DNA of 64,000 nt. It comes from Phenylobacterium sp. (lineage in GTDB: Bacteria; Pseudomonadota; Alphaproteobacteria; Caulobacterales; Caulobacteraceae). The notes under the pieces were generated by a model, which worked only from the letters and a program-made list of their open reading frames with translations, was not told the DNA's origin and ran no database searches. Within the stretch, counting starts at the first letter, position 1; each line of letters starts with the position of its first letter. Positions 21,619 through 47,485 of this stretch are shown in pieces. The stretch lies in assembly GCF_030681155.1 (NCBI RefSeq), contig NZ_JAUXXE010000053.1:62001-126000 (forward strand), read 5' to 3'. Made by a program: the position numbers and the translations under genes.

Positions 21619-21669
21619 GGTGGGTCCTCCTGCTCTGTGGCTAGCCCCCTCCGAATTCACATCTGCAGT

Positions 21670-21685
21670 CGCAGGGGCCGTCCAC
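21670..21685. repeat. Right sub-terminal inverted repeat of the IS1111-type element
   Basis: CGCAGGGGCCGTCCAC, the exact reverse complement of 20345-20360, five bases inside the right junction. Confidence 0.9.
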
Positions 21686-21690
21686 CCCAT

Positions 21691-21936
21691 CATCCAGGTC
21701 GGTTCGATGAAGCCGCGCGCCGCAGCTTCCGACCAGAGCAGGACGACATTGATCCCGTTGTAGGGCTGGCCGTTGTGCCGCAGTGGCCGGCTGACGCTCG
21801 AGGTCGCTGTCTTGTTCGACCAGGGTTGGGTCCAGGGGCGAACGCCGCGGTCGAGGTCGGCGACGATGGCGTTGGTGACGCGGGTGTAGAGGTCGGGCCG
21901 GGCGTCTGGGCGCACGGCGGAGGTTGGACGGGCCAT
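21691..21936 (-). pseudogene. ArdC-like antirestriction protein, N-terminal fragment
   Basis: The first 82 codons of the split ardC gene, from ATG 21936 to the PTWM codons at the IS junction. It contains the ssDNA-binding domain start (DLYTRVTNAIVADLDRGVRPWTQPW and NGQPYNGINVVLLWSEAAARGF). Joining it in frame to 19674-20342 would give about 304 residues, the normal ArdC length, so the IS insertion appears to be the only lesion. Confidence 0.9.
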
Positions 21937-26032: not shown

Positions 26033-27139
26033 TCAGGGCGCCGCCGGCTTGACCTGCTGCCCGATCGCCCAGACGAAGCCCGCCAACTCCCGGGCGATCG
26101 CCGTCACCACCACAGTCGGCTTCTTCCCCGAATGGGTCAGCTTGCGAAACCGATCGCAAAGACGCACCTGAGCCTTCCAGGCGATGTCGCGCACGGGCTT
26201 CGGCAGGCGCACCAGCACTTCCACCTTCTCCTGAGCGACCCGCGGCGGGTAGCGATAACTCCACGCCGCCTCCACCAGCATCCGTCGCGCCTCGCCATTG
26301 CCGGTCTTGGTGATGCCGCCGCGGCGGACGTGGTCGCCGCTCGAGTGCTCGGAGGGCACCAGGCCGAGGTAGGCCATCAGCTGGCTGGGGGTCTCGAAGC
26401 GGCTGAGGTCGCCAATGCCGGCGATGAAGGTGACGGCCGATATCGTCTCCAGGCCACGAAGCCCCCGCAACGCCTCCACCACCGGCCCCATCGACCAGGA
26501 CGGGATAAGGCCCGTAATCCGAGCGACCAACTGATCGCGCCGATCCTGGGCGGTGAAGATCGCTTCGACATAGTCCTGGAAGACGATCTGGTGCACTGGC
26601 TGCTCGAAGACCTGGGCCGCCAGCCAGACGCGGTGGCGCTGGGTCCAAGGCTTGCCCTTCTCGTAGATCCGGCCGTGCCGCAGCAGGAACGACAGCAACT
26701 GCTGGCGCGCCCGCATCAGCGCGCCGACAGCGGCGAGCCGGGCGCGCACCAGGTCGCGCATCGCTTCGTGGACGGGATCTGGCACCCAGACCTGCGTCAG
26801 GTCGCCTGAGCGGTGCAGGACCGCCAGCTTCTGGGAGTCCCGTCGATCGGTCTTCACCCGGTCGCCCGGCTTCCTGGGGATCAGCGACGGCGCCACGACC
26901 ATGCAGCCGTGGCCGAGCTCGGTGAGCTGACGATAGACGCCGTAGCCGCAGCAGCCGGCCTCATAGCAGAACTCCAGCTGGCTGCCGTCCCTCGCCAGCC
27001 GCTTCGCTAGCTTGGCGACGTCCGTCGGAGTGTTGCGGATCTCGCCGAGAAACCGGACCGCTCCGTCGCGTCCGTCCTCGGCGGTGCTGACCGCAATGCT
27101 GAGCTTGTGAACGTCCAATCCGATGTAGAGCGTGCCCAT
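26033..27139 (-). CDS. IS110-family transposase (IS110 group)
   Basis: A 368-residue DEDD recombinase starting MGTLYIGLDVHKLSIAVST. Other landmarks are EFCYEAGCCGYGVYRQL, KTDRRDSQKLAVLHRSGDLTQVWVP, and the C-terminal YLGLVPSEHSSGDHVRRGGITKTGNGEARRMLVEAAWSYRYPP. It is only distantly related to the IS1111-type enzyme at 20593. It appears complete. The long structured region lies upstream of the gene, as expected for the IS110 group proper. The element ends could not be fixed, so only the gene is given. Confidence 0.95.
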   Translation of the reverse strand: MGTLYIGLDVHKLSIAVSTAEDGRDGAVRFLGEIRNTPTDVAKLAKRLARDGSQLEFCYEAGCCGYGVYRQLTELGHGCMVVAPSLIPRKPGDRVKTDRRDSQKLAVLHRSGDLTQVWVPDPVHEAMRDLVRARLAAVGALMRARQQLLSFLLRHGRIYEKGKPWTQRHRVWLAAQVFEQPVHQIVFQDYVEAIFTAQDRRDQLVARITGLIPSWSMGPVVEALRGLRGLETISAVTFIAGIGDLSRFETPSQLMAYLGLVPSEHSSGDHVRRGGITKTGNGEARRMLVEAAWSYRYPPRVAQEKVEVLVRLPKPVRDIAWKAQVRLCDRFRKLTHSGKKPTVVVTAIARELAGFVWAIGQQVKPAAP

Positions 27140-28643: not shown

Positions 28644-29162
28644 ATGACCCAGGGAAGCGACGTGGACGCGCAGGACAGGGACAGCGAGGGTCCAAGCCTG
28701 GACCTGCTCTATCGTCGCCACGCGGCCTGGCTCAAGGCGGTGTTGCGCCGACGCTTCGATCCGCAGCAGGCCGAAGATCTGGTGCAGGAAGCCTATATCC
28801 GGCTCTCGCCCTATCAGGCCGAAGGCCGCGTCGAGCGCCCGCAAAGTCTCTTGCTTCGGATCGCCGAAAATCTAGCCTACAATCAGTCAAGAAGCGCCCG
28901 GCGAGATCGACGGAAGACGGGACGCCTGGCCGAGGTGACGCGCTGTCATGAGCCTTACACGGACGCAGAGCAGCATGAGGCGCTCCTGTTCAAGCAGGTG
29001 GTGGACGGTCTGCCCCAGACGCTGCGAGACACCTTCGTGCTGAGCCGCCACGCCGGAATGACCTATGCGGAAATCAGCGCCCACACGGGAACGCCGATCA
29101 AGACGGTCGAGTCCCGGATGGCCAAGGCTCTGGAACTGATCGCCCAGCGGATGCGAGCCTGA
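28644..29162 (+). CDS. FecI-like ECF sigma factor
   Basis: A 172-residue ECF sigma factor; ATG 28644 has GGGAG upstream, and the longer upstream frame is not family-like. Region 2 is LLYRRHAAWLKAVLRRRFDPQQAEDLVQEAYIRL; region 4 is LPQTLRDTFVLSRHAGMTYAEISAHTGTPIKTVESRMAKALELI. The FecI type is shown by the following fecR and TonB-receptor genes. It probably responds to a signal passed from the receptor through FecR and drives transcription of the receptor-isopeptidase operon. Confidence 0.93.
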   Translation: MTQGSDVDAQDRDSEGPSLDLLYRRHAAWLKAVLRRRFDPQQAEDLVQEAYIRLSPYQAEGRVERPQSLLLRIAENLAYNQSRSARRDRRKTGRLAEVTRCHEPYTDAEQHEALLFKQVVDGLPQTLRDTFVLSRHAGMTYAEISAHTGTPIKTVESRMAKALELIAQRMRA

Positions 29163-29167
29163 CGGCG

Positions 29168-30145
29168 ATGAGGACCGTGCCGCTAGATGACCAGCGCGCC
29201 GACCGGGAAGCGGCCGAATGGTTCGCGAAGCTGAACACCTTGTCGATCTCGACCCGCGCGCTGGAAGACTTCCAGTCCTGGCGCCGGGTGCCGGGCAACG
29301 ACGCCGCCTACGAACGCATGGAGGCGCTCTGGCAGGTTGGCGCACGCCTGACAAACACCCCCCAGACCCAGGCGGCGGTCCGCGCCGCACTGGCGCGCGG
29401 CGCGCGGCGCAGGCGCCTGTCCCTGCTCTGGAGCCCGAAGACGCGGACCGGCTACGGCATCGCCGCCCTGGCGGCGGGCGCCCTGCTGGCCCTGACGTTC
29501 GTGATCGGCCAGGGCGAGGCCTACAGCACCGGCGTCGGCGAGCAGCGACTGGTCACTCTCGACGACGGGACGCGTCTGCGCCTGGATACGGACACGCGCC
29601 TGCGGGTGCGCTTCACCGGCGAGGGCCGCGAGATCGAGTTGCGGCGGGGTCAGGCGTTCTTCGACGTGGCGCACGACCCCGCGCGGCCGTTCATCGTCGA
29701 GGCTGCGGACACGTCTGTCCGGGCCATCGGGACCCGGTTCGACGTGCGCAAGTCCGGCGAGGCGGTGAAGGTGACCCTGGTTGAGGGTGTTGTTGAGGTC
29801 GCCGATCGCCGCGGTGACCGGGCTTGGCGCCTTTCGCCAGGGGAAGGCATCGAGGCCACGTCGCACCCCGCGGCCAAGCCCGCGCCGGTCGATGTGGCGG
29901 CGGCCACCAGTTGGACCAGCGGGCGGCTCACCTTCCGCGCGACGCCGCTCGACGAGGCCGTGGCGGAGGTCAACCGCTACAGCCGCGACAAGGTGGTGGT
30001 CGACGCCGCCCGTTTCGAGCGCGTGCCGGTGAGCGGGGTCTTCGACGTCGGCGACACCGAGGCCTTCGTCGCCGCGGTCAGCGACCTGTTCGAACTACAG
30101 GCGGACCGAGAGCGCAACCAGATCATGCTAAGGCCGCGCCCCTAG
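29168..30145 (+). CDS. FecR-like anti-sigma/signal-transfer protein
   Basis: A 325-residue inner-membrane regulator starting 5 bp after fecI. Layout: cytoplasmic DUF4880-like domain (EAAEWFAKLNTLSISTRALEDFQSWRRVPGNDAAYERME), one membrane helix (GYGIAALAAGALLALTFVIG), then the periplasmic FecR domain (TLDDGTRLRLDTDTRLRVRF, RGQAFFDVAHDPARPFIVEA) and a C-terminal STN-like part. It would contact the STN domain of the next gene product and hold or release the sigma factor. Confidence 0.94.
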   Translation: MRTVPLDDQRADREAAEWFAKLNTLSISTRALEDFQSWRRVPGNDAAYERMEALWQVGARLTNTPQTQAAVRAALARGARRRRLSLLWSPKTRTGYGIAALAAGALLALTFVIGQGEAYSTGVGEQRLVTLDDGTRLRLDTDTRLRVRFTGEGREIELRRGQAFFDVAHDPARPFIVEAADTSVRAIGTRFDVRKSGEAVKVTLVEGVVEVADRRGDRAWRLSPGEGIEATSHPAAKPAPVDVAAATSWTSGRLTFRATPLDEAVAEVNRYSRDKVVVDAARFERVPVSGVFDVGDTEAFVAAVSDLFELQADRERNQIMLRPRP

Positions 30146-30305
30146 ACTTCACACGCTTTGCGTGCACGCCGATTCCTGCGACATCGGACGAATGTTTTTT
30201 TCGGCGCCCTTCAGGGTAAGCCCTCACGAGTGGTGCTTCTTCCTCAACAGCGGTTTCTCGCGCGCCTCCAACGCGCGGCCGCACGATTGAGGGGGAAGTC
30301 TCAAA

Positions 30306-33281
30306 GTGCCGTCTACGTCTTCATGTCCGTCAGGTCTGTTCGCCGGCGCCAGCCTGCTGGCCCTGCTCGCCGCGCCGCCGGCTTTCGCCGCCCCGGCGGA
30401 ACCGGTGCTCAGTTTCGCGATCCCGGCCGGCAGCCTCGAGAGTGCGCTGACCGCCTACGCCACAAGGGCTGACCTGCAGTTGCTCTACACGCCCGATGTC
30501 GTGCGCGACCACAGGACGCCGGGTCTGGTTGGCGACTTCACCGCCAAGGAAGCCCTGGCTCGTCTCCTGGCCGGCACGGGCGTCATCGCCCAGGAGAGCC
30601 GACCAGGGGTCATCGTGCTTCGGATCGGCATGGTCACAGCCCCACTGGAGACCGTCCAATCCGAGGTCGCCACCACCTCGTCCATGTTGGACGAGGTGGT
30701 GGTGACCGGAACTCACATTCGCGGCGCGGCCCCTGGGGCTTCGCCGGTGCTGATGGTGGACCGCGACGAGATCGACCGACAGGGCTACGCCACGGTGGCC
30801 GACAGCCTGTCGGCGCTGCCGCAGAACTTCTCCGGCTCGGCGACCTCTGACGTGGCCTCCGCTGGCCTGGACGCCACCAGCCTCAACTTCGGCCGGGCGA
30901 CGGCGATCAACCTCCGCGGCCTGGGCCCTGACGCCACCCTGGTGCTGGTCAATGGACGGCGGATGGCCGGCACGGGCGGCAAGGGCGACTTCGCCGACGT
31001 TTCGGCCATCCCCACGGCGGCGGTGGAGCGGATCGACATCCTGCTCGACGGGGCTTCGGCCCTCTATGGGGCGGACGCCGTCGGCGGGGTGGTCAACATC
31101 ATCCTGAAGCGCAATTTCGAGGGGGCCGAGACGCGGGCGCGGTATGGCTGGGCGAAGGGCGGAGCTCAGGAGATGCTGGCCGCCCAGACCCTCGGTCACG
31201 TCTGGAGCACCGGCCGGGCGCTGATTTCCTATGAATATTATGAGCGCGAGGCCCTGCCCTTCTCGGCCCGCGCCTATACCCGCAGCGCCGACTTCAGGCC
31301 GTTCGGCGGCGCCGACCGACGCACCAACATCGCCAGCCCCGGGAACATCGTCCTCGTCGATCCGGCGACCAACGCCGCTGTGCCGACCTGGGGTGTTCCG
31401 GCGGGCCGCTCGCCCCTGCGCCCCAGCGACTTCGTGCGCGGCGTCATCAATTTGCAGGAGCCCCGCGCCGACCAGGACCTGTTGCCCGATCAGGACCGCC
31501 ACAGCGTCTACGCCGCCTTCGGCCAGGAGCTCACCGCCCATCTCGAGGTCACCGCGGACCTGCGCTACAGCCATCGCACCTTCGACAGCCGCTCGGTGAT
31601 CCCCACCGCCGCGATCACCGTCAGCGACAACAATCCCTATTTCGTCTCGCCCAACGGCTCGCGGAGCCACCAGATCTACTATTCGTTCGCCCGGGACCTT
31701 GGCCCGACCCGCCTGTTTGGCAGCTCCGAGAGCCTCGGCGTCTCGGCTGGGGTCGAGGCCCGTCTGGGGGACGACTGGCGAGGTGAGGCCTATGGCGCCT
31801 ATGGACGCGAGCTGGTGCGGTCGGGCACCGACGGCAATCTCAACAGCCTCTTCCTGCGCGAGGCCGTCGGCACGGTCGCCGACAATCCGGCGACAGCCTT
31901 TCGCACCTCGGTGGACGGCTTCTTCAACCCGTTTGGCGATGGCGACGACAACGCCCAGGCGATCCTCGACTTCGTCGGCAGCGGCTATGGACGCCAGCGC
32001 TATCAAAGCAAGGTCGCCTCGCTCAACGCCCAGGCCGATGGCCGTGTCTGGCGGCTCCCGGGGGGTGACCTGAGGTTGGCGCTAGGCGTGCACGGCCGAC
32101 GCGAGCATTTCTCGCAGCGGGTCGAGAGCTTCACCGGTACGGCGGCGCCCACGGTGACCACCAGCCCGACCTACGCGCGCGAAATCCTCGCTGGCTTCGC
32201 CGAACTGCGGGCGCCGCTGGTGGGACCAGACAATGCGCGGCCCGGCGTTCGGGCCCTGGAACTCTCCCTGGCCCTGCGCACCGAGCGCTACAGCGACTTC
32301 GGAACCACCACCAATCCGAAGGTCGGCCTTGTCTGGGCGCCCGTCGAGACCCTTCGCCTAAGGGGCACCTATGGCCGCTCGTTCCGCGCCCCGACCCTGA
32401 CCGAGATCTACGCCACCCAGGTGATCAGCGCGACCAACTACCAGAAGGGGGCGGCGCGCATCCTCTCGCTCAACCTGACCGGCGGCAATCGGGATCTCGA
32501 GCCGGAGCGGGCCAGGTCGTGGACCCTGGGCGCCGACTGGTCGCCAAGCCTCGTCGCCGGCCTCAAGCTGTCGGCGACGGTGTTCGACACGCGGTTCTCC
32601 AACCAGATCGACCGTCCCGTGGCGCAGAATACCGCCGCCGCCCTCACCGATCCTGCCCTCGCGCCGTTCGTGCGGATGATCGACCCATCCCAAGCGGGCG
32701 ATCTGGCGGCCGTCCAACGCCTGCTAGACGATCCCACCTATGCGACGCCGGGCCTCTACCCCGCCAACGCCATCGGCGCGATCGTCGACACCCGCTACGT
32801 CAACACCAGCGTCCTGCGGGTTCGGGGCCTCGATCTCACGGCCGCCTACGCCTTCGCCTGGAACGAGGACCGGTTCGTCGCCGGCCTGAATGCGACCTAC
32901 CTGATGGACTACCAGCAGCAGCTGACCCCGACAGCGCCGACCTATCAGCGGGTCGATCTCGCCGGCCTGCCGGTGGATTGGCGCGCACGGGCCTGGCTCA
33001 GTTGGACCCGGGGCGAGTTCGGCGCCACTGGCGCGGTGAACTATGTCGACAACTCCCGGAGCCACCAAGGCAAACGGATCGACGCCTGGGCCACGGCCGA
33101 CCTGCAGGTGACCTGGTCGCCGTCCCGGTGGGACGGCTTGACCCTGGCGGTTTCGGCCCAGAACCTCCTCGACACCGACCCGCCCTTCTACGAGACCGAG
33201 AATGGGACGGTGGGCTACGACCCTGCCAACGCCGAGCCGCTCGGGCGCTATCTGGCGGTCCAGCTGACCAAGCGCTGGTAG
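30306..33281 (+). CDS. TonB-dependent receptor with STN signalling domain (lasso-peptide locus)
   Basis: A 991-residue outer-membrane receptor from a GTG at 30306 (GGGGGAAG upstream). Signal peptide through PPAFAAPAEP; STN domain about residues 38-108 (LSFAIPAGSLESALTAYATRADLQLLYTPDVV); TonB box/plug with VVVTGTHIRG and YGADAVGGVVNIILKRNF; then the 22-strand barrel ending AVQLTKRW. In lasso-peptide loci the receptor is thought to import the peptide or its siderophore-like form so that the isopeptidase can act on it. It lies 9 bp upstream of the isopeptidase gene. Confidence 0.94.
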   Translation: MPSTSSCPSGLFAGASLLALLAAPPAFAAPAEPVLSFAIPAGSLESALTAYATRADLQLLYTPDVVRDHRTPGLVGDFTAKEALARLLAGTGVIAQESRPGVIVLRIGMVTAPLETVQSEVATTSSMLDEVVVTGTHIRGAAPGASPVLMVDRDEIDRQGYATVADSLSALPQNFSGSATSDVASAGLDATSLNFGRATAINLRGLGPDATLVLVNGRRMAGTGGKGDFADVSAIPTAAVERIDILLDGASALYGADAVGGVVNIILKRNFEGAETRARYGWAKGGAQEMLAAQTLGHVWSTGRALISYEYYEREALPFSARAYTRSADFRPFGGADRRTNIASPGNIVLVDPATNAAVPTWGVPAGRSPLRPSDFVRGVINLQEPRADQDLLPDQDRHSVYAAFGQELTAHLEVTADLRYSHRTFDSRSVIPTAAITVSDNNPYFVSPNGSRSHQIYYSFARDLGPTRLFGSSESLGVSAGVEARLGDDWRGEAYGAYGRELVRSGTDGNLNSLFLREAVGTVADNPATAFRTSVDGFFNPFGDGDDNAQAILDFVGSGYGRQRYQSKVASLNAQADGRVWRLPGGDLRLALGVHGRREHFSQRVESFTGTAAPTVTTSPTYAREILAGFAELRAPLVGPDNARPGVRALELSLALRTERYSDFGTTTNPKVGLVWAPVETLRLRGTYGRSFRAPTLTEIYATQVISATNYQKGAARILSLNLTGGNRDLEPERARSWTLGADWSPSLVAGLKLSATVFDTRFSNQIDRPVAQNTAAALTDPALAPFVRMIDPSQAGDLAAVQRLLDDPTYATPGLYPANAIGAIVDTRYVNTSVLRVRGLDLTAAYAFAWNEDRFVAGLNATYLMDYQQQLTPTAPTYQRVDLAGLPVDWRARAWLSWTRGEFGATGAVNYVDNSRSHQGKRIDAWATADLQVTWSPSRWDGLTLAVSAQNLLDTDPPFYETENGTVGYDPANAEPLGRYLAVQLTKRW

Positions 33282-33290
33282 GGCGCTGTC

Positions 33291-35717
33291 ATGCGACGTC
33301 TGGCCTTTGCAGCGGCGGCCCTGGCCGCCGCCCTCCTCTGCGCGCCTGCGACCGCCGCGCGGCCGTACGGGGTGGCGGACTTGCTGGCCACGGAGGGGGT
33401 TGGTCGGATCGTGTTCGATCCGACCGGCCGCTGGATGGTGATCGAGCGGCGTCGGCCTTATCGGACGGCGGCGCGGTTCGACTACAACCAGCAGACCGGG
33501 ATGTTGCTCACCGAGTTGCTCAAGGTGGACCTCAGCGACGCCGCAGGCCGAGGGACGCCGCTCATGCCGCAGGACCTGGCGGCCGGCGTCCTGGCCGGTC
33601 CGATCTCCCCGGACGGCCGGCGCATGTTGGTGCAGCGCCTGCACGACCACAGCTTCGATCTCGGGATCGTCGAGATCGCCACTGGCGCGGTGCGCTGGCT
33701 GCCGCTGACGCCGGAGCTCGCCAACCATGGCGCGACAGCGGTGTGGCGCGGTCCGCACGAGGTGTTGGCCATCGTCCGCGCCCCTGGCGACCTGCCTCGA
33801 CAACTGGCCCTCGGATGGGAAGCTCAGGCGCGACTGCAGTTGCTTTGGGCGAAGACCCGGGAGGGCCAAGACCCCTCGGTCACCGCCATCGGCAGCGGCC
33901 GGTTTCTGGATGTCCGGCCACGGGAGGCGCCGGCACGGTTGGTGCGGATCGACGTCCGGTCGGGGGCTGTCGCCGAGCTGGCGCGCGGTGAATTCCAGGA
34001 CATAGCCCTGTCCGCCTCCGGGCGCTGGGCCGCCCTCATCGAGAACGGCGCAGATCTACAGCCGCAGGCGCAGGAGGCGATCTACACCGCTTTCCCAGCG
34101 CGGCGACGCCACTTGCGGCTCGTCGACGTCACCTCCGGCGAGACGTGGGAGCCCTGCCCCGACTGCGATGTCACGTTTGGGCTGCTCGATTGGGCCAAGG
34201 CCTCGGCCCGCTTGGTCATCACCGCCCGCGCCGCGGGTCCCGATGGCGATGGCAAGGCCCTGGTGGTGATCGACGCCCCGCGGCGCAGCGTCACCCGGCC
34301 GCCGCTTGGCGACCTGGTGCTTGACCTGCAAACGACGCGCAATGAACAGGCGCGACGAGCCCGCGCGACCTGGTTGGGCGAGGATCTGCTGGTCTTCGCG
34401 CACGATCGGACGGGGCGCAGCGATTGGTATCGCCTGCGGGCCGGAGGCGCCCAGGCGCTGACGCGGTCCATGCCGCAGACGCCGCGGCAGGTGGCCGCCG
34501 CGCGCGCAGGTCGGATCGACCTGGTGGCGGGCGGCGCGCTCTGGGAGATCTCGACCAGCGGCGCCGTCCGGCGGCGCGTCCGGCGCGATGGCGACCGCCC
34601 CCTCCCCCTGTCGCAGGACCCCCATGCCCGCGCGGCGGCGAACCCCGTCGCGCCGACCGATCTCGTCCTGAGCGGCCCGCGGGGTCTGGTGCGTGAGCGT
34701 CCTGGCCATGACGCCGCCCTGCCGCTCCCGCCCGGTTGTGCGAACCCGATCCGGGGTCCGGAACATGTGGCGGCGGTCTGCGCCGGCCCCGGCGGGCGCC
34801 GGGAGGTCCTGGTCGGCGATTGGACGCGCGGGTGGCGCAGCGTGCTGACGCTCAACGCCGGCCTCGCCGAGATCGAGCCCGCGGTGCTGCGCCGGGTCGC
34901 GCCGAAGGGCGCCCGCGCCCCCAGCTGGCTCTACCTGCCGCGGACGCCGCCGCCGGCCCGAGGCTATCCGCTGGTGGTCATCCCCTATCGTGGCGCGGTC
35001 TATCCCGAGCCTGATCCTCGGTTCGAGGTCGGCGCCTTCACCGCCTATCTCAATCCGCAGATTCTGGCGGCCCAGGGCTATGCGGTGCTGACCCCCAGCC
35101 TGACCTATGACGAGACGCAAGGCGAGCCGGCCGCGGGCCTGGCCGCCGACATCCTGCAGGTCGTGGACGCCGCCTTGGCGGCGCAGCCGCTCGACGGCCA
35201 GCGCATCGCGCTCTGGGGCCAAAGCCTGGGGGGCATGAACGCGGTGGCCGCCGCTGCTCAAAGCCCGCGGTTCCGCAGCGTGATCGCGGTCGCGGGCATG
35301 CACGACATCGTCTCGCGCTGGGGCATGATCCCGGTCCATCGCTGGGTGGTTCCAGACGACACCGCCTCGATCGGCCCCTCGGGGGCTGTGGAGGGCGCGC
35401 AGGCGCGGATGGGCGCGCCGCCCTGGGCCGACCCCGAGCGCTATCTGCGAAACAGCAATCTCTTCTCCGCCGGCGCGATCACAGCGCCCGTGCTGCTCGT
35501 GCATGGGGAGACCGACGAACTGCGTCCCGAGCAGTCCCAAGAGATGTTCACCGCCCTCTATCGCCAAGGGAAGGACGCTCAGTTCGTGACCTATTGGGGC
35601 GAAGGGCACGCCCTGGCGAGCCCAGCCAACATCGCCGACTACCTGGCCCGGGTGCTCGCCTGGCTGGACGCCACCCTGCCGGAGGCGCCGGCGGCCGCCA
35701 GCCGGTCCGCCCAATGA
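33291..35717 (+). CDS. Lasso-peptide isopeptidase (S9 prolyl-oligopeptidase family, AtxE-like)
   Basis: An 808-residue secreted serine hydrolase with a signal peptide (MRRLAFAAAALAAALLCAPATA), an N-terminal beta-propeller and a C-terminal alpha/beta-hydrolase domain. The predicted triad is Ser645 in GQSLGGM, Asp742 in HGETDELRP and His773 in WGEGHAL. In proteobacterial lasso clusters such an enzyme opens the isopeptide ring of the cognate peptide. Identity as the isopeptidase rests on the neighbouring precursor, peptidase and cyclase genes; as a lone protein it would be called an S9 peptidase. Its 3' end overlaps the convergent cyclase gene by 79 bp. Confidence 0.88.
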   Translation: MRRLAFAAAALAAALLCAPATAARPYGVADLLATEGVGRIVFDPTGRWMVIERRRPYRTAARFDYNQQTGMLLTELLKVDLSDAAGRGTPLMPQDLAAGVLAGPISPDGRRMLVQRLHDHSFDLGIVEIATGAVRWLPLTPELANHGATAVWRGPHEVLAIVRAPGDLPRQLALGWEAQARLQLLWAKTREGQDPSVTAIGSGRFLDVRPREAPARLVRIDVRSGAVAELARGEFQDIALSASGRWAALIENGADLQPQAQEAIYTAFPARRRHLRLVDVTSGETWEPCPDCDVTFGLLDWAKASARLVITARAAGPDGDGKALVVIDAPRRSVTRPPLGDLVLDLQTTRNEQARRARATWLGEDLLVFAHDRTGRSDWYRLRAGGAQALTRSMPQTPRQVAAARAGRIDLVAGGALWEISTSGAVRRRVRRDGDRPLPLSQDPHARAAANPVAPTDLVLSGPRGLVRERPGHDAALPLPPGCANPIRGPEHVAAVCAGPGGRREVLVGDWTRGWRSVLTLNAGLAEIEPAVLRRVAPKGARAPSWLYLPRTPPPARGYPLVVIPYRGAVYPEPDPRFEVGAFTAYLNPQILAAQGYAVLTPSLTYDETQGEPAAGLAADILQVVDAALAAQPLDGQRIALWGQSLGGMNAVAAAAQSPRFRSVIAVAGMHDIVSRWGMIPVHRWVVPDDTASIGPSGAVEGAQARMGAPPWADPERYLRNSNLFSAGAITAPVLLVHGETDELRPEQSQEMFTALYRQGKDAQFVTYWGEGHALASPANIADYLARVLAWLDATLPEAPAAASRSAQ

Positions 35718-37396
35718 CGCACCCAGGCCTCGACCACGGCGAAGCTCATCAGGGCTGAATAGTCGCCGCGCCAGATCAGGTGGTCGCGCACCAGCATCGG
35801 TTCCAGCCGCGCCCGATCCAGGAGCCCTGCGCGCACCAACTCCCCGTCCAGCAGATAGTCGCGCAGCATCGGCAGGCTGGCGGCCGCGACCTGGCCGTAA
35901 TAGGCGCCGAGTTCGCCCTTGGACTGCCGCAGCCGCACGCTGTCTGGCAGCCGCCCGGCGAAGGCCTGCCGCGCCAGGCCGCGGTCACGGCCGCCGGCGG
36001 TCAGACGCGATGTAGGTAGGCTGAGGCAGAGTTCCATCACCGGCTGGGCGAGCAAGGGGTGGACGACCTCGGCGGCCCGTCCGCGCAGGCCCTCGATCTG
36101 GATGGTCAGCTTGTGGGCCAAGGTGGCGATCTGGACCTGCTTGGCCGGTGGCAGGTCTTCGATGCCCTCCGCCCAGGGATGCCCGGCGACCGGGCGCAGC
36201 TGCCGGGCCAGGTCGAGCTTCCAATCCAGCCCGGGTGTCGTCCAGATACTGCGACGGCACCAGCGCGCGACGTTCAAGGCGTAGTCGGATGTCCAGACAG
36301 CTGGCCCTCGATCGCGCAAGGCGTCGATCAGCAGCAATGGGGTCGGCGTCGCGAAGAACGCCATGTCGCCGCCCTGGCCGGTGACGATGCGGCCAGCCCC
36401 GAGGGTGCGCGCACGGTCGGCGGCGTCGGCGTCCCGCGCCGCGTCCTTCGCCGAAAACCCCGGCCGCAAACCGTCGGCGCACAGGGCCAACATCATTTCG
36501 GTGACGGCAAAGTCGGGCTTGAGCACTTCGGTGAGCGGGATGTCGAGATGGCGCGCGACATCGCGGGCATAGGCGCGCTCGTCGCCGCGCCGGCCGGGCA
36601 CATAATAGTTTGTCCACTCAAGGACCTGGTCACGGACCTGGCCTGCTAGGCTGGCGGCCAGGATCGCAGAGTCCAGGCCTCCGGAGATCTCGGCGAGCAC
36701 AGGGGCGTCACCCACCAGCCGCCGGACGCAGGCGTCCACGGTGTCGCGCAAGGCGGTGTGCGCATCGCGTGGCGTCGCCGCTCGGGCCGCCCCTGCCGGC
36801 GACCAGACTTGCCGAACGCCGCCGTCGCTCCGCAGCAGGGCGCCAGGGGTCACGGCCTCAAGGCCGCTCAAGGCGGCCTGGGCGCCAATGGCGGCCGAGG
36901 AGCGCACCCAGGCAGCGACCGCGCGCCAATCGATCGCCAGGTCCAAAGGCCAGAGTTCAGGCGCCAACCAGGTCGGCAGGTGGCTGGCGACGATCTGCGT
37001 CTCCTCCCGCGACCAGGTCATGGCCTCGAGGCCGCCGCCGGGATCACGCAGGATCGACCAAGCGCCGCCGGGCTCGGTGATCAAGGCCACGTACCGCCCC
37101 CAGAAGCGGGTGAGGAGGTCGGCCGCGATGGCTTCCACGGGCGCCGCGCGAGAGATCACCAGGCTCTCCACCTCCTCGCCGACCGCGCCTTGAAAGCTAG
37201 CGCGGTAGAGATCGCCGAGCACCAGGCCGCGGTCGCCCGGTAATCTGCGCACCGGAGCACCGGATGGATCGCGCACCAGCACGAGGCTGTCGGGCGCCTC
37301 CCAGGCGATGCGCCAATCGGACGGCGCGGCCGCCCGCAGGGCCATGACCGCGTCTGGAGTCGCCCCCGTCCAGCGCAGCGCGACATAGGCGGCCAC
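35639..37396 (-). CDS. Lasso-peptide cyclase (asparagine-synthetase-like, C protein)
   Basis: This enzyme activates the Asp/Glu side chain with ATP and joins it to Gly1 of the core peptide. About 585 residues from a GTG at 37396, three bases after the peptidase stop. It has an N-terminal glutaminase-like domain without an N-terminal Cys, as is usual for cyclases, and the PP-loop SGGLDS at 238-243 in the C-terminal synthetase domain. WTNYYVPGRRGDERAYARDVA and the ATP-site stretch VTGQGGDMAFF further support it. The 79-bp convergent overlap with the isopeptidase gene is unusual. Confidence 0.93.
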   Translation of the reverse strand: MAAYVALRWTGATPDAVMALRAAAPSDWRIAWEAPDSLVLVRDPSGAPVRRLPGDRGLVLGDLYRASFQGAVGEEVESLVISRAAPVEAIAADLLTRFWGRYVALITEPGGAWSILRDPGGGLEAMTWSREETQIVASHLPTWLAPELWPLDLAIDWRAVAAWVRSSAAIGAQAALSGLEAVTPGALLRSDGGVRQVWSPAGAARAATPRDAHTALRDTVDACVRRLVGDAPVLAEISGGLDSAILAASLAGQVRDQVLEWTNYYVPGRRGDERAYARDVARHLDIPLTEVLKPDFAVTEMMLALCADGLRPGFSAKDAARDADAADRARTLGAGRIVTGQGGDMAFFATPTPLLLIDALRDRGPAVWTSDYALNVARWCRRSIWTTPGLDWKLDLARQLRPVAGHPWAEGIEDLPPAKQVQIATLAHKLTIQIEGLRGRAAEVVHPLLAQPVMELCLSLPTSRLTAGGRDRGLARQAFAGRLPDSVRLRQSKGELGAYYGQVAAASLPMLRDYLLDGELVRAGLLDRARLEPMLVRDHLIWRGDYSALMSFAVVEAWVRHWADRLAAAGASGRVASSQASTRAR

Positions 37397-37398
37397 GG

Positions 37399-38052
37399 TT
37401 AGACCACCATGATCGGTTCGAAGCTGGAGACATAGTCGACGGTGTCGTTGAGAACGACGTCGCCGGCCTGGACCCAACAGTGGGCGGCGAAGGGCCAGGT
37501 CCGCACCGCGAAGACCCAGTCGGCCCGCAGGTCATGGCAGGCGAGGATGTCTAGCAGCAGGAAGGATTGGTAGAGGCACGCGCCCTGGACCGGCAGCCAC
37601 GGGAGGCTGGTCTGGAAGCCTGCGCCGAGTCTGGCGGCCGCGGCGATATCCAGCCGGCCGCCGCGCTGAGCGCGCCGCCGGCCGACCAGATCGGCGAACG
37701 GGCGCCGATGATACCGCGAGAGCATGGCCAGGCTGCCGACCACTAGGTCTGGCCAGGACGGCGCACGTCCCCGCGGCGCCGGCACGACGTCGAAAGCCTC
37801 CTGGGTCGGCGGCGGTCCCCAGCGACGGGGCTGGAGAACCTCGCGGTCGGTGAGGAAGTTCGCCTCTTGCAGTTCCGCGGCAAGATCGTCGGCGAGGCCG
37901 CGCAGCACGCCCAGCGCCGGATCGAGCAACAGGTTTGCCCCGGCCTGAGGCAGGCAGAAATACTGGTCCCTCGACACATCGAGCAGCACCAGATCCTCGC
38001 CGCAGAGGGCGGCGTGAACGTCCTGAGCCAATCGCCAGATCCGTTGAGCCAT
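37399..38052 (-). CDS. Lasso-peptide leader peptidase with RRE domain (B protein)
   Basis: A 217-residue protein joining an N-terminal PqqD-like leader-recognition domain (residues about 1-75: LVLLDVSRDQYFCLPQAGANLL) to a C-terminal transglutaminase-like cysteine peptidase. The predicted triad is Cys159 in LPVQGACLYQSFLLLDIL, His191 in FAAHCWVQAGDVVLNDT and Asp203. It removes the leader so the core can be cyclised. The gene lies 56 bp downstream of the precursor gene on the same strand. Confidence 0.93.
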   Translation of the reverse strand: MAQRIWRLAQDVHAALCGEDLVLLDVSRDQYFCLPQAGANLLLDPALGVLRGLADDLAAELQEANFLTDREVLQPRRWGPPPTQEAFDVVPAPRGRAPSWPDLVVGSLAMLSRYHRRPFADLVGRRRAQRGGRLDIAAAARLGAGFQTSLPWLPVQGACLYQSFLLLDILACHDLRADWVFAVRTWPFAAHCWVQAGDVVLNDTVDYVSSFEPIMVV

Positions 38053-38108
38053 GGGTGCGCATCCGAAAGAGGCGGCCGACGCCGGACGACCGGCGCCGGC
38101 CAGCCCCC

Positions 38109-38219
38109 TTACGGATAGACCTCGTCGAACTCTTCCGGGTTCAGGCCCTGGATGCCGCCGAGGGTGAGGCGGCGGGCGTCGCCCAGGCAGATCAGACGGG
38201 TGTTGCGCGTCTTAAGCAT
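38109..38219 (-). CDS. Lasso-peptide precursor (A peptide), 36 residues
   Basis: This small gene is found by reading the gap upstream of the peptidase gene. ATG 38219 has GGAGG six bases upstream; TAA at 38109-38111. The 20-residue leader includes TRLICLGDARRLT, close to other proteobacterial lasso leaders, with Thr at position -2. The predicted core is GGIQGLNPEEFDEVYP (16 residues). A ring between Gly1 and Glu9 would make a nine-residue macrolactam with a seven-residue tail. It resembles short cores reported from Caulobacteraceae. Glu9 as ring acceptor is a rule-based inference; Glu10 is next to it. Confidence 0.9.
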   Translation of the reverse strand: MLKTRNTRLICLGDARRLTLGGIQGLNPEEFDEVYP

Positions 38220-38238
38220 GGTAGCCTCCATTCACATG

Positions 38239-38258
38239 AGGTCGCTTCAGTGCGACCT
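38239..38258. promoter_or_regulatory. Inverted repeat in the leader of the lasso precursor gene
   Basis: AGGTCGC-TTCAGT-GCGACCT, a perfect 7-bp stem with a 6-base loop, 20 bp upstream of the precursor ATG and close to its ribosome site. It could be a regulator site or an RNA hairpin that affects translation of the precursor. Confidence 0.5.
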
Positions 38259-38293
38259 GGCCAGGAGGCGCCCAGCCCATAGTGTATTCAATC

Positions 38294-38308
38294 TATAGGT
38301 GTTCTATA
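38294..38308. promoter_or_regulatory. TATAG palindrome at the 3' end of the gntR gene
   Basis: TATAG-GTGTT-CTATA, a 5-5-5 palindrome within an AT-rich patch (38281-38312) that is distinct from the GC-rich surroundings, about 75 bp upstream of the precursor start. A likely place for the precursor promoter and for binding of the neighbouring GntR protein; both are inferred. Confidence 0.4.
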
Positions 38309-38942
38309 TTTCGCCCTCGCCGGACCTGGCGCTGACGGCGCGCGCCAGCCGATCGGCCTCCGTCACCCGGCGGCGGTGATAGGCGCGAAGGGCATGGCTG
38401 AGGCGCGTTCCGTCCGCCTGCGCGGCGGCCAGAGCCTGCAGCTCCATCGCGGCCTCCGTGAGCACCCCGCTCTCGGCGAGCCGCACCGGATGCAGCCGAT
38501 CGGCCAGCACCCCGTGAAACCTCGCGAGGGTGCGATTGCCGCCGGCGCGCACCAGGGCGGCGAACAGCTGCGCGCTCGCCGCCGCCAAGGCCGCCCCGGA
38601 GTTCGGCATCTCGATGGCGAGCGGAGCAAGGTCCGCGGAGACCCCGCGGCGGCCCGCGTCTGCAGCGGCGTGCAGGGTGAGCGCGCCGTGCAGGCTGTAG
38701 AGGTCGGCGATCTCGGCCGACCCCAGGCGCCCGGCCAGATAGCCCCTCGCCGCGCCCCGTCGGCCTTCGATCAGGCCCTCGCCGGCCAGGAACGCCAAGG
38801 CCTCGCGAACCGGTGTCGCACTCAGCCCCAGGGACTGGGCGAGATCCATCACCACCAGGGGCGCGCCTGGGCGCAGCTCGCCCTGGCGCAGTCGCATGCG
38901 CAGTTCGCTCAGCGCCTCGCCGAAGGGGTCGCGGGTTCGCAT
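38304..38942 (-). CDS. GntR-family regulator of the lasso-peptide locus
   Basis: A 212-residue GntR/FCD-type regulator. The N-terminal winged helix holds LRQGELRPGAPLVVMDLAQSLGLSATPVREALAFLAGEGLIEG; the C-terminal helical part is short and lacks an obvious metal site. It lies immediately upstream of the precursor, peptidase and cyclase genes on the same strand, as in several lasso clusters, so it probably controls them. Confidence 0.9.
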   Translation of the reverse strand: MRTRDPFGEALSELRMRLRQGELRPGAPLVVMDLAQSLGLSATPVREALAFLAGEGLIEGRRGAARGYLAGRLGSAEIADLYSLHGALTLHAAADAGRRGVSADLAPLAIEMPNSGAALAAASAQLFAALVRAGGNRTLARFHGVLADRLHPVRLAESGVLTEAAMELQALAAAQADGTRLSHALRAYHRRRVTEADRLARAVSARSGEGEI

Positions 38943-39279
38943 GGTCGCTCCCTCGCCATCAAGTACAGGCGAGCACTTTGCGACCGTAGATTCATGGGAG
39001 TCCAGAAAAACTCACGCCACACGGCAGATATGAGACCGAAACACAGTCATTCGCCTACGATTCGCCATCTTATTGCGAACATATCGCAAGATCATGGCAC
39101 TATCATGCAAGGGATTTGCGCAGCCTCGTCTGATATCTTGATTTCTAAACAGAAGCGGCGACGAATGCTCCTGCGAGCAAACGACCTTTTCTTTGCCAAT
39201 TGCACGACGGAGCATTGAACGCCCCCTCGGTCGCGCTCTATCTGAGGCTGTTCAGCCAGCCGGACCCGAGCCCGCATCG
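38943..39279. promoter_or_regulatory. Divergent intergenic region with a 6-5-6 palindrome
   Basis: 337 bp between the gntR and XRE genes, much more AT-rich than its neighbours. It contains the palindrome TTGCGA-ACATA-TCGCAA at 39073-39089 and, just after it, a direct repeat ATCATG spaced by five bases. It probably carries the divergent promoters and a binding site for one of the two flanking regulators. No gene is seen. Confidence 0.5.
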
Positions 39280-39771
39280 ATGACCGCCGCTTCCCACCTG
39301 CCGGCTGAAGAGGCCGCGACGCTGTCGCTCGTCCTGCGCACCATCCGTCGGCGCCGGGGGCTGAAGGCGGGTGAGATCGCGCGCGAGATGGGGCTCGGCG
39401 TGCGCACCTATCAGTATCTGGAGGCCGGCCAGAGTCCCTGGGACCCGGAGCGGATTCGGAGGTTCGCGCAGGCGACCGACAGCGACCCCCACGCCATCGT
39501 CGCGGCCGTGATGCTGGGCTCGCCCAACCTCGCCATCTCGGCGATGGACAACAAGCTGGTCAGCGTCCTGATGGCTGGACTGAAGCGCTTCGACGAACGG
39601 ATGGGCGAGGACATGGCGCGGATCGAGGTCGGCCGCTCGATCGCCGCCATCCGGCGGGTGTTCGGCTTCCTGGAGAGCGATCTGGCCGAGCGCGACGCCC
39701 AAGCCAAGGCCTGGCTAGACGTCGCCGCGGAGTCCGCCGCCGGCCCCGATGACCGGGAAGCTGACGATTGA
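39280..39771 (+). CDS. XRE-type helix-turn-helix regulator
   Basis: A 163-residue protein from ATG 39280. Residues 17-70 hold an XRE helix-turn-helix (LRTIRRRRGLKAGEIAREMGLGVRTYQYLEAGQSPWDPERIRRFA); the C-terminal helical part (MDNKLVSVLMAGLKRFDERMGEDMARIEVG) likely dimerises. It lies between the lasso locus and the defence genes and is followed closely by the nucleotidyltransferase gene, which it may control. The ribosome site is weak, so the start is uncertain. Confidence 0.85.
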   Translation: MTAASHLPAEEAATLSLVLRTIRRRRGLKAGEIAREMGLGVRTYQYLEAGQSPWDPERIRRFAQATDSDPHAIVAAVMLGSPNLAISAMDNKLVSVLMAGLKRFDERMGEDMARIEVGRSIAAIRRVFGFLESDLAERDAQAKAWLDVAAESAAGPDDREADD

Positions 39772-40864: not shown

Positions 40865-41749
40865 GTGCAGGCGCAGTTGAAGGTGTCTGAGCGCCGCGCC
40901 TGCGCGGTGCTCAGACAACACCGATCCACCCAACGCAAACCGCCCAGGGGCCGCGACGACGAGGCGGCTCTAACCGCCGACATCATCGCGTTGGCCAAGA
41001 CCTACGGCCGCTACGGCTACCGGCGGATCACGGCCTTGTTGCACCACGCGGGTTGGTCGGTGAACGCCAAGCGCGTGCAGCGGATCTGGCGACGGGAGGG
41101 GCTGAAGGTCCCACAGAAACACCCAAAGCGCGGCCGGCTCTGGCTGAACGACGGCTCGTGCGTTCGCCTGCGCGCTGAACGGCCCAACCACGTCTGGTCC
41201 TACGACTTCGTCGAGGACCGCACCCACGATGGACGCAAATTCCGTATGCTCTGCGTGATCGACGAGTTCACCCGTGAGGCCCTGGCCATCCGGGTCAAGC
41301 GACGGCTCAACTCCACCGATGTACTGGAGACCCTGGCGGATCTGATGATCCTGCGCGGACCACCGGCCTATGTTCGGTCAGACAATGGCCCGGAGTTCAT
41401 CGCCAGGACCCTGCGTGAATGGATCGCCGCCGTCGGCGCCCAGACCGCCTACATCGAGCCAGGAAGCCCCTGGGAAAACGGCTACTGCGAGAGCTTTAAC
41501 AGCAAGCTTCGCGACGAACTGCTCAACGGCGAGATCTTCTACAGCCTGACGGAGGCCCAGGTGTTGATCGAGGCCTGGCGGCGGCACTTCAACGCCGTCC
41601 GGCCCCACAGCGCGCTCAACTACCGACCACCAGCGCCCGAAGCGATCATCCTTCGCGGTGGAACCATCGTGCCATGGGCGAGCGCGCCAGCTGTTGAGGG
41701 CGCGCGCTCGCCCACCCCAACCATGGCCTCAGAGCCAGCCATGCACTAA
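40865..41749 (+). CDS. IS3-family OrfB (DDE transposase)
   Basis: 294 residues as an independent reading from GTG 40865, but the frame is open further upstream (SPARRRACIDK), so it is probably made as an OrfAB fusion by -1 frameshifting. The rve integrase core is present: HVWSYDFVEDRTHDGRKFRMLCVIDEF (first D), VRSDNGPEF (second D) and SPWENGYCESFNSKLRDE (E). Appears intact. Confidence 0.95.
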   Translation: MQAQLKVSERRACAVLRQHRSTQRKPPRGRDDEAALTADIIALAKTYGRYGYRRITALLHHAGWSVNAKRVQRIWRREGLKVPQKHPKRGRLWLNDGSCVRLRAERPNHVWSYDFVEDRTHDGRKFRMLCVIDEFTREALAIRVKRRLNSTDVLETLADLMILRGPPAYVRSDNGPEFIARTLREWIAAVGAQTAYIEPGSPWENGYCESFNSKLRDELLNGEIFYSLTEAQVLIEAWRRHFNAVRPHSALNYRPPAPEAIILRGGTIVPWASAPAVEGARSPTPTMASEPAMH

Positions 41750-41762
41750 CATTGAACCCGGA

Positions 41763-42392
41763 TCACCCAATCGGGTCAGGCCAACCCTCCGACTCGATAC
41801 CGCCCGCGACATGGAGGTGTCCCGTAAGGACAAACGGCAAACCATCCATCTGCCCCCGTAACGTGTCGAGCAATTCCGCGTAGAGACTGCGCACCCCTGC
41901 GACGACGGGCGAACCCGATTCGCCATCCAACCGCGTCAAATTCGGAAGGCATGCGGCCGTCGGGTAAGAGACCGCCAAGACGTTAGCGGCCACAGCTCCG
42001 CTGGCGCCGGCGATCGGCACGAGGTGGCGTGCCGCCTCAACCCGCCCGTCATGCCGCCGCACATTTCCGACGACGCGGATATTGAATGCCTCCAAGAGGG
42101 GCCGCGGCGCTTCCAACCGACCTGCGGCATCATGATTGCCGGCGACGATCACGATTGTCATTCTTGGCTGCGCGCGGCTCAGCCGCACAAGCGCATTGTA
42201 GAAAAGCTGTTGCGCTTCTCCGGACGGGTTCTGACTGTCGAATACATCGCCGGCGATTATGAGCGCATCGACATTCCGCTCAACGACGATCTCTTCGAGG
42301 CGATCAAAGACTTTACGGTGCTCGTGCTCGCGCGAGAACCCGCGCAGCGTTTGACCGACGTGCCAATCAGCCGTGTGCAGAATGCGAATCAT
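41763..42392 (-). pseudogene. SbcD/Mre11-like nuclease, C-terminus removed by the IS3 element
   Basis: ATG 42392 overlaps the herA-like stop (ATGA). The metallophosphoesterase motifs are present in order: D-x-H (TADWHVGQ), GDxxD (AGDVFDSQNP), GNHD (VAGNHDAAG) and the LTGHLHVAGGIESEG stretch, which by position matches the penultimate His motif of SbcD/Mre11. The last motif (the usual ALGHxH) and the capping domain are missing; the final residues and stop codon come from the IS. It would have been the third gene of the SIR2-HerA operon. A fourth gene (for example an SbcC partner) may have been lost. Confidence 0.85.
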
Positions 42393-44506
42393 TGCCCTTG
42401 GTCCTCCGGCTCTTGCACCGGAGGAGTGCCCGACCATGCTTTCGAGATTACGCCCCAATCGACGCCTCGCTCTTCGGCCAGCGTCCACACCTTCCAGAAA
42501 TCCGGGTCCGCCGACTGCGGCCGCTGCGCATCGGGCAATTCATCCACCTCTACCAGAACCGGGATCGGTGCTGCCCAGCCGAGGAGGACAGCCTGTCGGG
42601 ACGGTAAACTTGGCAACTCGCGGAGCAGCCCGCCTACATTATCGGGAACCAGGCGCGCGACGAGATTCTGGTCTGCGTCATTGACTATGCGGTGCAATAG
42701 AAACGTGTTGCATTGAGCGAGCACCGTCGGAGAAAGCTCCGACGGACGCTGTGACGAAAGCACTAGCCCAAGCCCGAACTTGCGTCCCTCACGGGCTATA
42801 CGCTCGAACACCTCGCGGCAGAGTTGGGTTGGAGATGAGGCAGGGCCGTCATCGTCCTTACCACGCCGAACGAATGTGTGCGCTTCCTCAAGGACGAGGA
42901 CGGTCGGCAAGGTCTGGCCCTTCGGATGGCCGCGGCGATACCGCTGAAGAGATTCGAAAATCAGCCGTGCTAGAACAGAAACAACGATGTGAACGATCTC
43001 GGACGGGACGAGAGATAGGTCGACAACTGCGATCTGTCCGTTGCTTGCACCATCGTCGCCCACGTAATCCTTCAGCCAGGTTTCGAATGAGGTCGGCGGA
43101 TCGCGCCCAATTACCGCGCCAAGTCGCTGGTCAGCGAGCATTCCGCGAATGCGCAGTCCAAGCGTTGAGATAAACCCCGCAAGGTTCCCCCCTTGCTCGG
43201 TTGCCACCCGGTCGAGGTGTTCGGCAAGAATGTTAACGTCAAAGAACTGCGGGGCGTCCTCGCTGATGGGCGCCGCGTGGCCGACATCCGGCAGTGTCTG
43301 CGCCAAGGTGTCCAATGCGCCACGGACCGTCTCCAGGTCAGCGATCGCGAAGTCATTGAAGAAATTGCCTGAGCGCCGCTGATCGACGACTCCCGTGGTC
43401 GTGGTTGCAATTGCAGCCAGGGCCCCACTCACCGGCTCCTGAACCTCACCGGCAAACTGGGAACAATCTGAAGCGATCGTTTCAAGGAGCCGCGCGCATT
43501 CGAATCTCGGTCTCGGGGCACCCGCGAAGGCCTGGGTGCCGGTGTTCAGCATCGCCAAAATACGGATTGAATAGGAACCGAGGTAGCGGCGGATCATCGC
43601 CTCTCTCGGCACACCCTCCGTCTGGCCGGCCTTCAATTCTCGGAGCCCCTGCATCAGCAGCGGCCGTTGCGCACCGGGCTGGGCGTGCGCGACCGCGGTC
43701 CATTCGTGCCCGCTCCAGAGCCACGCGGGGACGTCGAGCGGTCGCTCTCCTTCTGCCACGGGTGGAACGCGAAACAATCGCAGTTCGTCTCCCCGATCAG
43801 CAAAGGCCCTGGCGTATTCGCCATTTGGATCAAGGACGATAAACCGCGCATTGGGCGCTCCGGTCTTGCCGGCGTCCTGGATGGCCTTCTCGGCCGCCGC
43901 CATAGACCATCGAATTAGCCCCGCCACGGTGCATGATTTGCCGCTGCCGGTGTTTCCCAACACGGCCAAGTGCCGGCCGAAGAGCTTGTCAGGATCGACC
44001 ATGATGGCGGCATTTGACGCCATCGGAGAGGATCCAATTCTGACTCTCTTGTCGTCGTCCCTCGCTCCTACGATGGCTTCGACCTGTGAGGGCGTCGGAA
44101 TGAGAACCTGGTCTCCCACTGACGGAAATGCGACAACGCCACGGGAGAGTTCGTATACGGTTGTTCCCGAAGCGCGATCGCGTCGGGATGTCAGCGTTCC
44201 GACCGGGGACAGCGACATTTTCCGCAGCGGAAATGGCAGATCGATCAGGCCGAAATCTTTAAGGCCGGCACGCTTTGGATAGGGAGAGCGCTCGATCCCA
44301 ATCCAGGTGATGTAGGCAACCGTCGCACCGGCTTCATTGGGGATGAGCAGATATCCATTGAGCCGCGGAAAGCCAGCCGGCACACCGGTATTTAGCGCCG
44401 TGGAGTGCGGAGCATCGAGCTCGAGAAGGACCCGAACTTCGTCAGGCGCGACCGACTCGACCACACCGACCACAAGACCGGACAAACGTTCGACTGGAGT
44501 TGTCAT
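42389..44506 (-). CDS. HerA-type DNA translocase ATPase (defence operon)
   Basis: A 705-residue HerA/FtsK-like hexameric ATPase from ATG 44506. The N-terminal HAS-barrel (LSGLVVGVVESVAPDEVRVLLELDAP) is followed by Walker A LGNTGSGKS (Lys190), Walker B TVLVLEEAHTFV and the arginine-rich stretch FERIAREGRKFGLGLVLSSQRPSELSPTVLAQCNTF. HerA proteins paired with SIR2, DUF4297 or NurA-type effectors form large antiphage complexes. The start is 8 bp after the SIR2 stop, so the two are one operon. Confidence 0.93.
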   Translation of the reverse strand: MTTPVERLSGLVVGVVESVAPDEVRVLLELDAPHSTALNTGVPAGFPRLNGYLLIPNEAGATVAYITWIGIERSPYPKRAGLKDFGLIDLPFPLRKMSLSPVGTLTSRRDRASGTTVYELSRGVVAFPSVGDQVLIPTPSQVEAIVGARDDDKRVRIGSSPMASNAAIMVDPDKLFGRHLAVLGNTGSGKSCTVAGLIRWSMAAAEKAIQDAGKTGAPNARFIVLDPNGEYARAFADRGDELRLFRVPPVAEGERPLDVPAWLWSGHEWTAVAHAQPGAQRPLLMQGLRELKAGQTEGVPREAMIRRYLGSYSIRILAMLNTGTQAFAGAPRPRFECARLLETIASDCSQFAGEVQEPVSGALAAIATTTTGVVDQRRSGNFFNDFAIADLETVRGALDTLAQTLPDVGHAAPISEDAPQFFDVNILAEHLDRVATEQGGNLAGFISTLGLRIRGMLADQRLGAVIGRDPPTSFETWLKDYVGDDGASNGQIAVVDLSLVPSEIVHIVVSVLARLIFESLQRYRRGHPKGQTLPTVLVLEEAHTFVRRGKDDDGPASSPTQLCREVFERIAREGRKFGLGLVLSSQRPSELSPTVLAQCNTFLLHRIVNDADQNLVARLVPDNVGGLLRELPSLPSRQAVLLGWAAPIPVLVEVDELPDAQRPQSADPDFWKVWTLAEERGVDWGVISKAWSGTPPVQEPEDQGQ

Positions 44507-44513
44507 GGTCGCC

Positions 44514-45818: not shown

Positions 45819-45895
45819 ACTTCCCCCCGAGACCGCGATCACGGCCCTTTTCTTCATCAATTGCGCCACTCGGGACGAAATAATTTGTCATCCCG

Positions 45896-47426: not shown

Positions 47427-47455
47427 GGTCGGTGACGTTTCCTCTGTTCTGGCAA

Positions 47456-47485
47456 AATATAGCAGAGGTTTTATCACAACTCTGC
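47456..47485 (-). promoter_or_regulatory. Likely promoter/operator of the AbiE operon
   Basis: On the minus strand a TATATT (-10-like, 47456-47461) lies 30 bases upstream of the antitoxin start. An inverted repeat GCAGAG...CTCTGC occupies 47462-47485, overlapping the promoter. AbiEi proteins are known to bind inverted repeats at their own promoter, so this is a fitting autoregulation site. A -35 element is not clear. Confidence 0.45.

Follow-up and report, generated by a model that had tools for sequence, protein, structure and literature searches.

The 64,000-nucleotide stretch of DNA that we analyzed (hereafter, the window; positions 62001-126000 of contig C69 in genome G000, a 4.19-Mb draft of a Phenylobacterium) very probably contains a complete isopeptidase-type lasso-peptide locus of Caulobacteraceae. 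Its genes, their domains, the conserved catalytic residues and the conserved layout can all be read directly from the DNA. The system is one that is already known and well described, and it is the peptide that is probably new: one more predicted member of a rare sub-group having a 9-residue ring, a short tail and a leader that ends in LTL.

The locus consists of two convergent gene sets. On the minus strand are a 36-codon precursor gene, A (38109..38219), the gene for the B protein (37399..38052), which is expected to join an N-terminal leader-binding half to a cysteine protease, and that for the lasso cyclase, C (35639..37396, with a likely GTG start at 37396). Facing these on the plus strand are an ECF sigma factor of FecI type (28644..29162, in an open reading frame that extends from 28554; Sigma70_r2 and r4_2 above Pfam cut-offs, FecI-like NCBIfam models below theirs), a FecR anti-sigma factor (29168..30145; PF04773, 88.7 bits), a TonB-dependent receptor with an N-terminal STN signalling domain (30306..33281; TonB_dep_Rec 146.5, Plug 66.6 and STN 39.0 bits, each above cut-off) and an S9, i.e., prolyl-oligopeptidase-like, protein that is the putative lasso isopeptidase (33291..35717; Peptidase_S9, 84.6 bits). 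The coding ends of the peptidase and the cyclase overlap by 79 bases, and scanning ten genes of the locus revealed no ABC transporter. A sequence-only reading had described this arrangement of a GGAGG-preceded 36-codon gene, protease and cyclase opposite a FecI-FecR-TonB receptor-peptidase operon, and we find each element where it was placed. All of the genes named in that reading lie within the span it assigned, 28644..38942, but the locus continues past 38942 to a regulator of the XRE family (39193..39771, plus strand, likely ATG at 39280; HTH_31, 33.6 bits). Its assignment of the gene set to a known proteobacterial cluster type agrees with domain scores above cut-off and with the layout of named Caulobacteraceae loci and of those in a published review.

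The precursor reads as the leader MLKTRNTRLICLGDARRLTL followed by the predicted core GGIQGLNPEEFDEVYP (38112..38159, minus strand). The 36-codon start was chosen over a 40-codon start because a ribosome-binding site, GGAGG (38225..38229, minus strand), lies five bases 5' of the 36-codon ATG, and the starts of sibling precursors, each picked by its own ribosome-binding site, align with it. The occurrence of sibling precursors with the same leader at the equivalent place in other genomes argues that this short gene is not a chance reading frame. A profile built from five precursors (that of the window and four siblings) recovers six copies, the five used to build it among them, at 68.8-82.7 bits in four of 390 genomes of the family (two each in G372 and G000, one each in G358 and G299), and its next-best match scores 31.4 bits. 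When the five cores are aligned, i.e., GGIQGLNPEEFDEVYP from the window, GAPIVGEPEEESLFYQE from contig C13 of the same genome, GGLFNLPPEFDIEPRP and GGIFNLPPENDVELRP from G372 and GGEVGPPIEEHAFPYE from G299, the only invariant residues are Gly1 and Glu9.

The window precursor also fits the lasso pattern of Thr at -2, one of Gly, Ala, Ser or Cys (here Gly) at core position 1 and an acid within positions 7-9. We recovered 42 distinct precursors from related loci by a script that covered lengths of 28-50 codons, required an acid at 7-9 and yielded a precursor for 37 of the 68 locus entries; L018 lacks upstream sequence, leaders in other entries may not fit the motif, and the precursor of L005 was found by eye. 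Among those recovered, to which the ring-size tallies apply, 22 have the acid at position 8 alone and 17 at position 9 alone; two have acids at both 7 and 9, and one at both 8 and 9. Their lengths of 33-46 codons make the earlier description of this precursor as unannotatably short too strong. Since the core contains both Gly-Gly and Glu-Glu, adjacent registers can be drawn, with a start at the second Gly (and a Gly2-Glu10 or Gly2-Glu9 ring) or with closure at Glu10. Such alternatives are very improbable: a start at the second Gly would take Thr away from -2, and there are siblings that lack the second Gly (GAPIVGEPE) or an acid at position 10 (GGLFNLPPEF, GGIFNLPPEN), whereas Gly1 and Glu9 never vary. 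The core start and the Gly1-Glu9 ring, with its seven-residue tail, are thus well supported by the aligned precursors, as is the assignment of Thr at -2 of the leader.

The proposal that the peptide may be new has held up in each collection searched. A search with the precursor profile turned up no copy of the peptide in the remaining 389 of the 390 family genomes; a search of 72,556 plasmids returned 48 records, all of them short chance matches that cover less than 80% of the precursor; and the core sequence does not occur in the PMC full-text literature. A phmmer search of the precursor protein against the PDB gave nothing useful, and among the matches listed for lasso peptides in Phenylobacterium there was nothing on this locus.

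Both maturation enzymes retain their catalytic residues. The B protein matches NF033537 (lasso_biosyn_B2) at 60.6 bits (cut-off 33) and Transglut_core3 at 69.1 bits (cut-off 26); across 12 aligned B proteins Cys159 and His191 are invariant and Asp203 is nearly so. Neither Pfam nor NCBIfam has a model that matches the N-terminal half of the window protein, where the RRE is expected, and in a search of the 12 aligned proteins for the PqqD-like RRE a single one matched NF033530, weakly (E=0.068). The cyclase matches Asn_synthase (PF00733) at 100 bits and falls far below the cut-off of the lasso-cyclase model NF033535 (36.8 of 525 bits), these queries having spanned 35639-37402, two codons beyond the likely GTG start; its SGG.DS ATP loop is invariant in 12 aligned proteins. 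Searched singly against the PDB by phmmer, B and C gave nothing useful, and a profile of the 12 cyclases matched nine chains, including an amidotransferase and a beta-lactam synthetase, none of them named as a lasso cyclase. In the cyclase tree, the window groups first with the loci of G299 and G372 (SH-aLRT 96) and next with those of C13 and G358 (97); this is a quick-method tree with SH-aLRT support only, from which the truncated copies L031 and L026 and rows shorter than 300 residues were left out, except that of G372, which fills 25% of the columns. The window takes another, weakly supported position in the tree of B (83/79). In a family-wide search with B, identity to the best-scoring protein outside G000 is 44%, and no listed match exceeds 48%.

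The weakest point of our reading is the identification of the S9 enzyme as an isopeptidase, which we regard as putative. The protein begins with what by eye is a Sec-type signal peptide, and in an alignment of 19 proteins Ser645 and His773 are invariant and Asp740 nearly so, these being the Ser-His-acid triad as assigned by position rather than by structure superposition. Its score on the isopeptidase equivalog NF033523 (Atxe2) is 37.5 bits against a cut-off of 400, and it scores higher, 41.3 bits, on a lactonase model, also below cut-off. The alternative is a periplasmic peptidase of general function, which would digest peptides without being specific for the lasso. In its favour, the best matches of the protein in both structure and sequence are ordinary S9 peptidases: the window sequence alone finds 37 PDB matches without AtxE2 among them, the family profile matches general S9 peptidases better than it does AtxE2, and of the 19 aligned proteins, 18 hit a dipeptidyl-peptidase model as well. 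Yet all 19 have a match to the Atxe2 model with E<=0.001, the family profile finds AtxE2 (PDB 5txc) at E=4.1e-18 over its C-terminal part, and the gene lies convergent beside the cyclase, as it does in related loci, such that we consider a general peptidase unlikely. Structure comparison returned other S9 peptidases and did not list AtxE2, and the fold therefore cannot separate an isopeptidase from other S9 enzymes here.

The same genome has two further lasso loci, bringing its total of isopeptidase-type loci to three, of which that in the window sits in an island bearing conjugation genes. The locus on contig C13 (L004 7668-19602) is complete and resembles that of the window in layout, with cyclase, peptidase and B each 43% identical and a precursor that is half identical and retains Gly1 and Glu9; unlike that of the window, its predicted core, GAPIVGEPEEESLFYQE, has a tail of 8, and the locus is shared with G358 and lies on a contig other than that of the island. 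The locus on contig C34 (L005 8936-18150) has a precursor in which ...SEETY is followed by the predicted core GAPGQTLEFENEYQIVN, with Glu8. Its B2 score is 48.3 bits, and its isopeptidase, being of the classic Atxe2 type, reaches 481.7 bits, above the Atxe2 cut-off.

From its surroundings, the lasso locus in the window is cargo of a tRNA-Asn-linked island with two conjugation modules. By comparison of the edge gene, G358 and G351 are the two nearest of 100 genomes of the genus. Contig C69 is homologous to them (92.8% and 90.4%, respectively) over bases 1-2341, a stretch that breaks off at the 3' end of a tRNA-Asn gene (C69 2266-2341); a serine recombinase reading frame (C69 2300-3976) lies next to this gene, the two together spanning L079 2266-3976. 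This boundary strengthens the earlier view that the locus is in mobile DNA. A 20-kb piece further in (C69 40001-60000) has scattered matches only in G358 and G351. Coupling proteins and VirB4-like ATPases occur twice, within the window and, beyond it, at C69 134535-141196; the relaxase scores above the cut-off for DUF3363 and below it for the Relaxase model, and some of its plasmid matches are annotated as VirD2 family. Of the features by which an ICE is recognized, a recombinase at a tRNA gene, a relaxase, a coupling protein and a type IV secretion ATPase are present, and the island carrying the lasso locus looks transferable. Contig C69, whose far end lies in conjugation genes, contains no second copy of the last 14 bases of tRNA-Asn and no att repeat was found on it; the other end of the island is outside the contig. 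Relatives of the cyclase occur on 25 of the 72,556 plasmids (10 predicted to be conjugative; best identity 37.8%), and among the 20 matches listed, an Atxe2 isopeptidase is annotated under the match in two and a prolyl oligopeptidase in two, showing that replicon-borne loci of such sort are not unique.

Given transposase genes on either side (26033-27139 and 40865-41749), and given that the sole B relative in the nearest relative, G358, is the counterpart of the C13 locus, it might be argued that the island carries the window locus as a passenger that is silent or in decay. But every reading frame of the locus is open and the catalytic residues are intact, and we consider this reading very improbable. 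Elsewhere in this part of the window, HerA and SIR2 genes and an AbiEi/AbiEii pair (42389-47477) form a likely defence cluster adjoining the lasso locus, and a reading frame in which the N-terminal domain of ArdC is fused to an IS110 transposase (20593-21936) suggests insertion of an IS110 element into an antirestriction gene.

Two regulators lie upstream of the biosynthetic genes: a GntR-family protein (38304..38942, minus strand; PF00392, 51.3 bits) and, divergent from it, the XRE-family protein. We surveyed 33 named loci, 31 of which have sequence upstream of B; there, 30 have a GntR relative, at a distance of 2.6 kb in two of them, and 27 have a relative of XRE. By this comparison the XRE regulator belongs to the lasso locus. 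In 12 of the 16 Brevundimonas loci with upstream sequence (L046-L074), XRE is nearer to the precursor than GntR, and the order in the window is reversed, with GntR nearer.

A palindrome, TATAGAACACCTATA, of the form TATAG-N5-CTATA, occurs once in the window, at 38294..38308, where it overlaps the gntR stop codon 75-89 bases before the precursor start codon. Sites of this class (TATA[GCT]N5[CGA]TATA) recur upstream of lasso genes. The best site in an upstream stretch of fixed extent matches at least 8 of 10 positions in 37 of 56 locus entries, against 4.2 expected from shuffles, after leaving out duplicate loci and L068 and L076, whose contigs start within B (46 of 67, against 4.7, with duplicates included). 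Exact-class palindromes number 30 across 35 non-redundant long loci totalling 714,363 bases; 29 of these palindromes fall 150-900 bases before B, a zone amounting to 3.7% of the bases, and five shuffled sets of these loci contain none. The nominal p of 5e-41 is not a test, since the class was defined after inspecting some of the loci and many of them are kin. An exact site is present in 24 of the 35 loci. Where GntR occurs and no XRE was found, two loci have an exact site (L059, L078) and two a site matching 8 of 10 (L075, L077); L061, with XRE only, has no site. We consider the palindrome a candidate for a shared operator or promoter element of lasso loci, and it was not found as a lasso operator among the literature matches listed on operators or in passages of the lasso-peptide review PMC9266682.

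There is a fair chance, if somewhat short of even, that the palindrome is merely a conserved core-promoter element and no regulator site: it is TATA-rich, it lies close before the start codon, and its exact form is missing from 11 of the 35 non-redundant loci. Its symmetry and 5-base spacer, however, are kept across genera, and L084 has separate copies for two precursors (a pair for each, 11 bases apart), although a tandem duplication may account for these. That the palindrome, GntR and XRE form a cluster-specific switch common to isopeptidase-type lasso loci of Caulobacteraceae, and with FecI-FecR-TonB close a loop by which the cell senses the return of its own lasso or of the cargo that this carries, is a tentative idea that we think unlikely. 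If it is true, the job of isopeptidase lasso peptides could be tested through the ligands of these regulators. The shared palindrome and regulator pair offer a concrete handle for finding the targets of these regulators and whatever releases them.

By analogy with the protein families, B would bind the leader and its Cys-His-Asp protease would cut after Leu20, whereupon C would activate Glu9 with ATP and join it to Gly1 around the tail, producing a 16-residue lasso with a computed [M+H]+ of 1745.80. Once released, the peptide may bind to the TonB receptor; the STN domain of this receptor would signal through FecR and FecI to increase expression of receptor and peptidase, and the imported lasso would be opened by the periplasmic S9 enzyme; we infer this loop from the STN domain, the FecI-FecR pair and an S9 enzyme that looks secreted. 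Control of the A-B-C operon may lie with GntR, perhaps together with XRE, and probably acts at 38294-38308. Among the roles suggested for isopeptidase-type lassos in passages of PMC9266682 are control of peptide level and siderophore-like release of cargo, none of them settled, and transposon mutagenesis in Sphingomonas (PMC11006600) has connected a lasso B2 gene with the use of phenanthrene.

The layout described here is already known, being stated in passages of the review PMC9266682, according to which isopeptidase clusters have in common a GntR-like regulator ahead of the precursor and, next to the isopeptidase, a TonB-dependent transporter and a sigma/anti-sigma pair; the XRE partner was not found in the passages of that review that recount cluster layout. 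As portrayed in parts of PMC9266682 and PMC5067487, the astexin, caulosegnin, sphingopyxin I and benenodin-1 clusters have, like the window, A-B-C, an S9-type isopeptidase, a TonB receptor, a FecI/FecR-type pair, GntR before A and no ABC transporter, and rings of both 8 and 9 residues are ascribed to caulosegnins in a portion of PMC13352647. A literature search on lasso peptides and conjugation returned nothing relevant among the matches listed. The window protein resembles AtxE2 (PDB 5txc, 5txe) in the profile match over the C-terminal part but differs in length, 808 aa against a 638-position model, and in scoring below the curated cut-off. In contrast to the known alphaproteobacterial clusters, the locus has a core that did not turn up in the searches described above and an S9 enzyme far from the AtxE2 model, and it resides in a tRNA-Asn island with conjugation genes.
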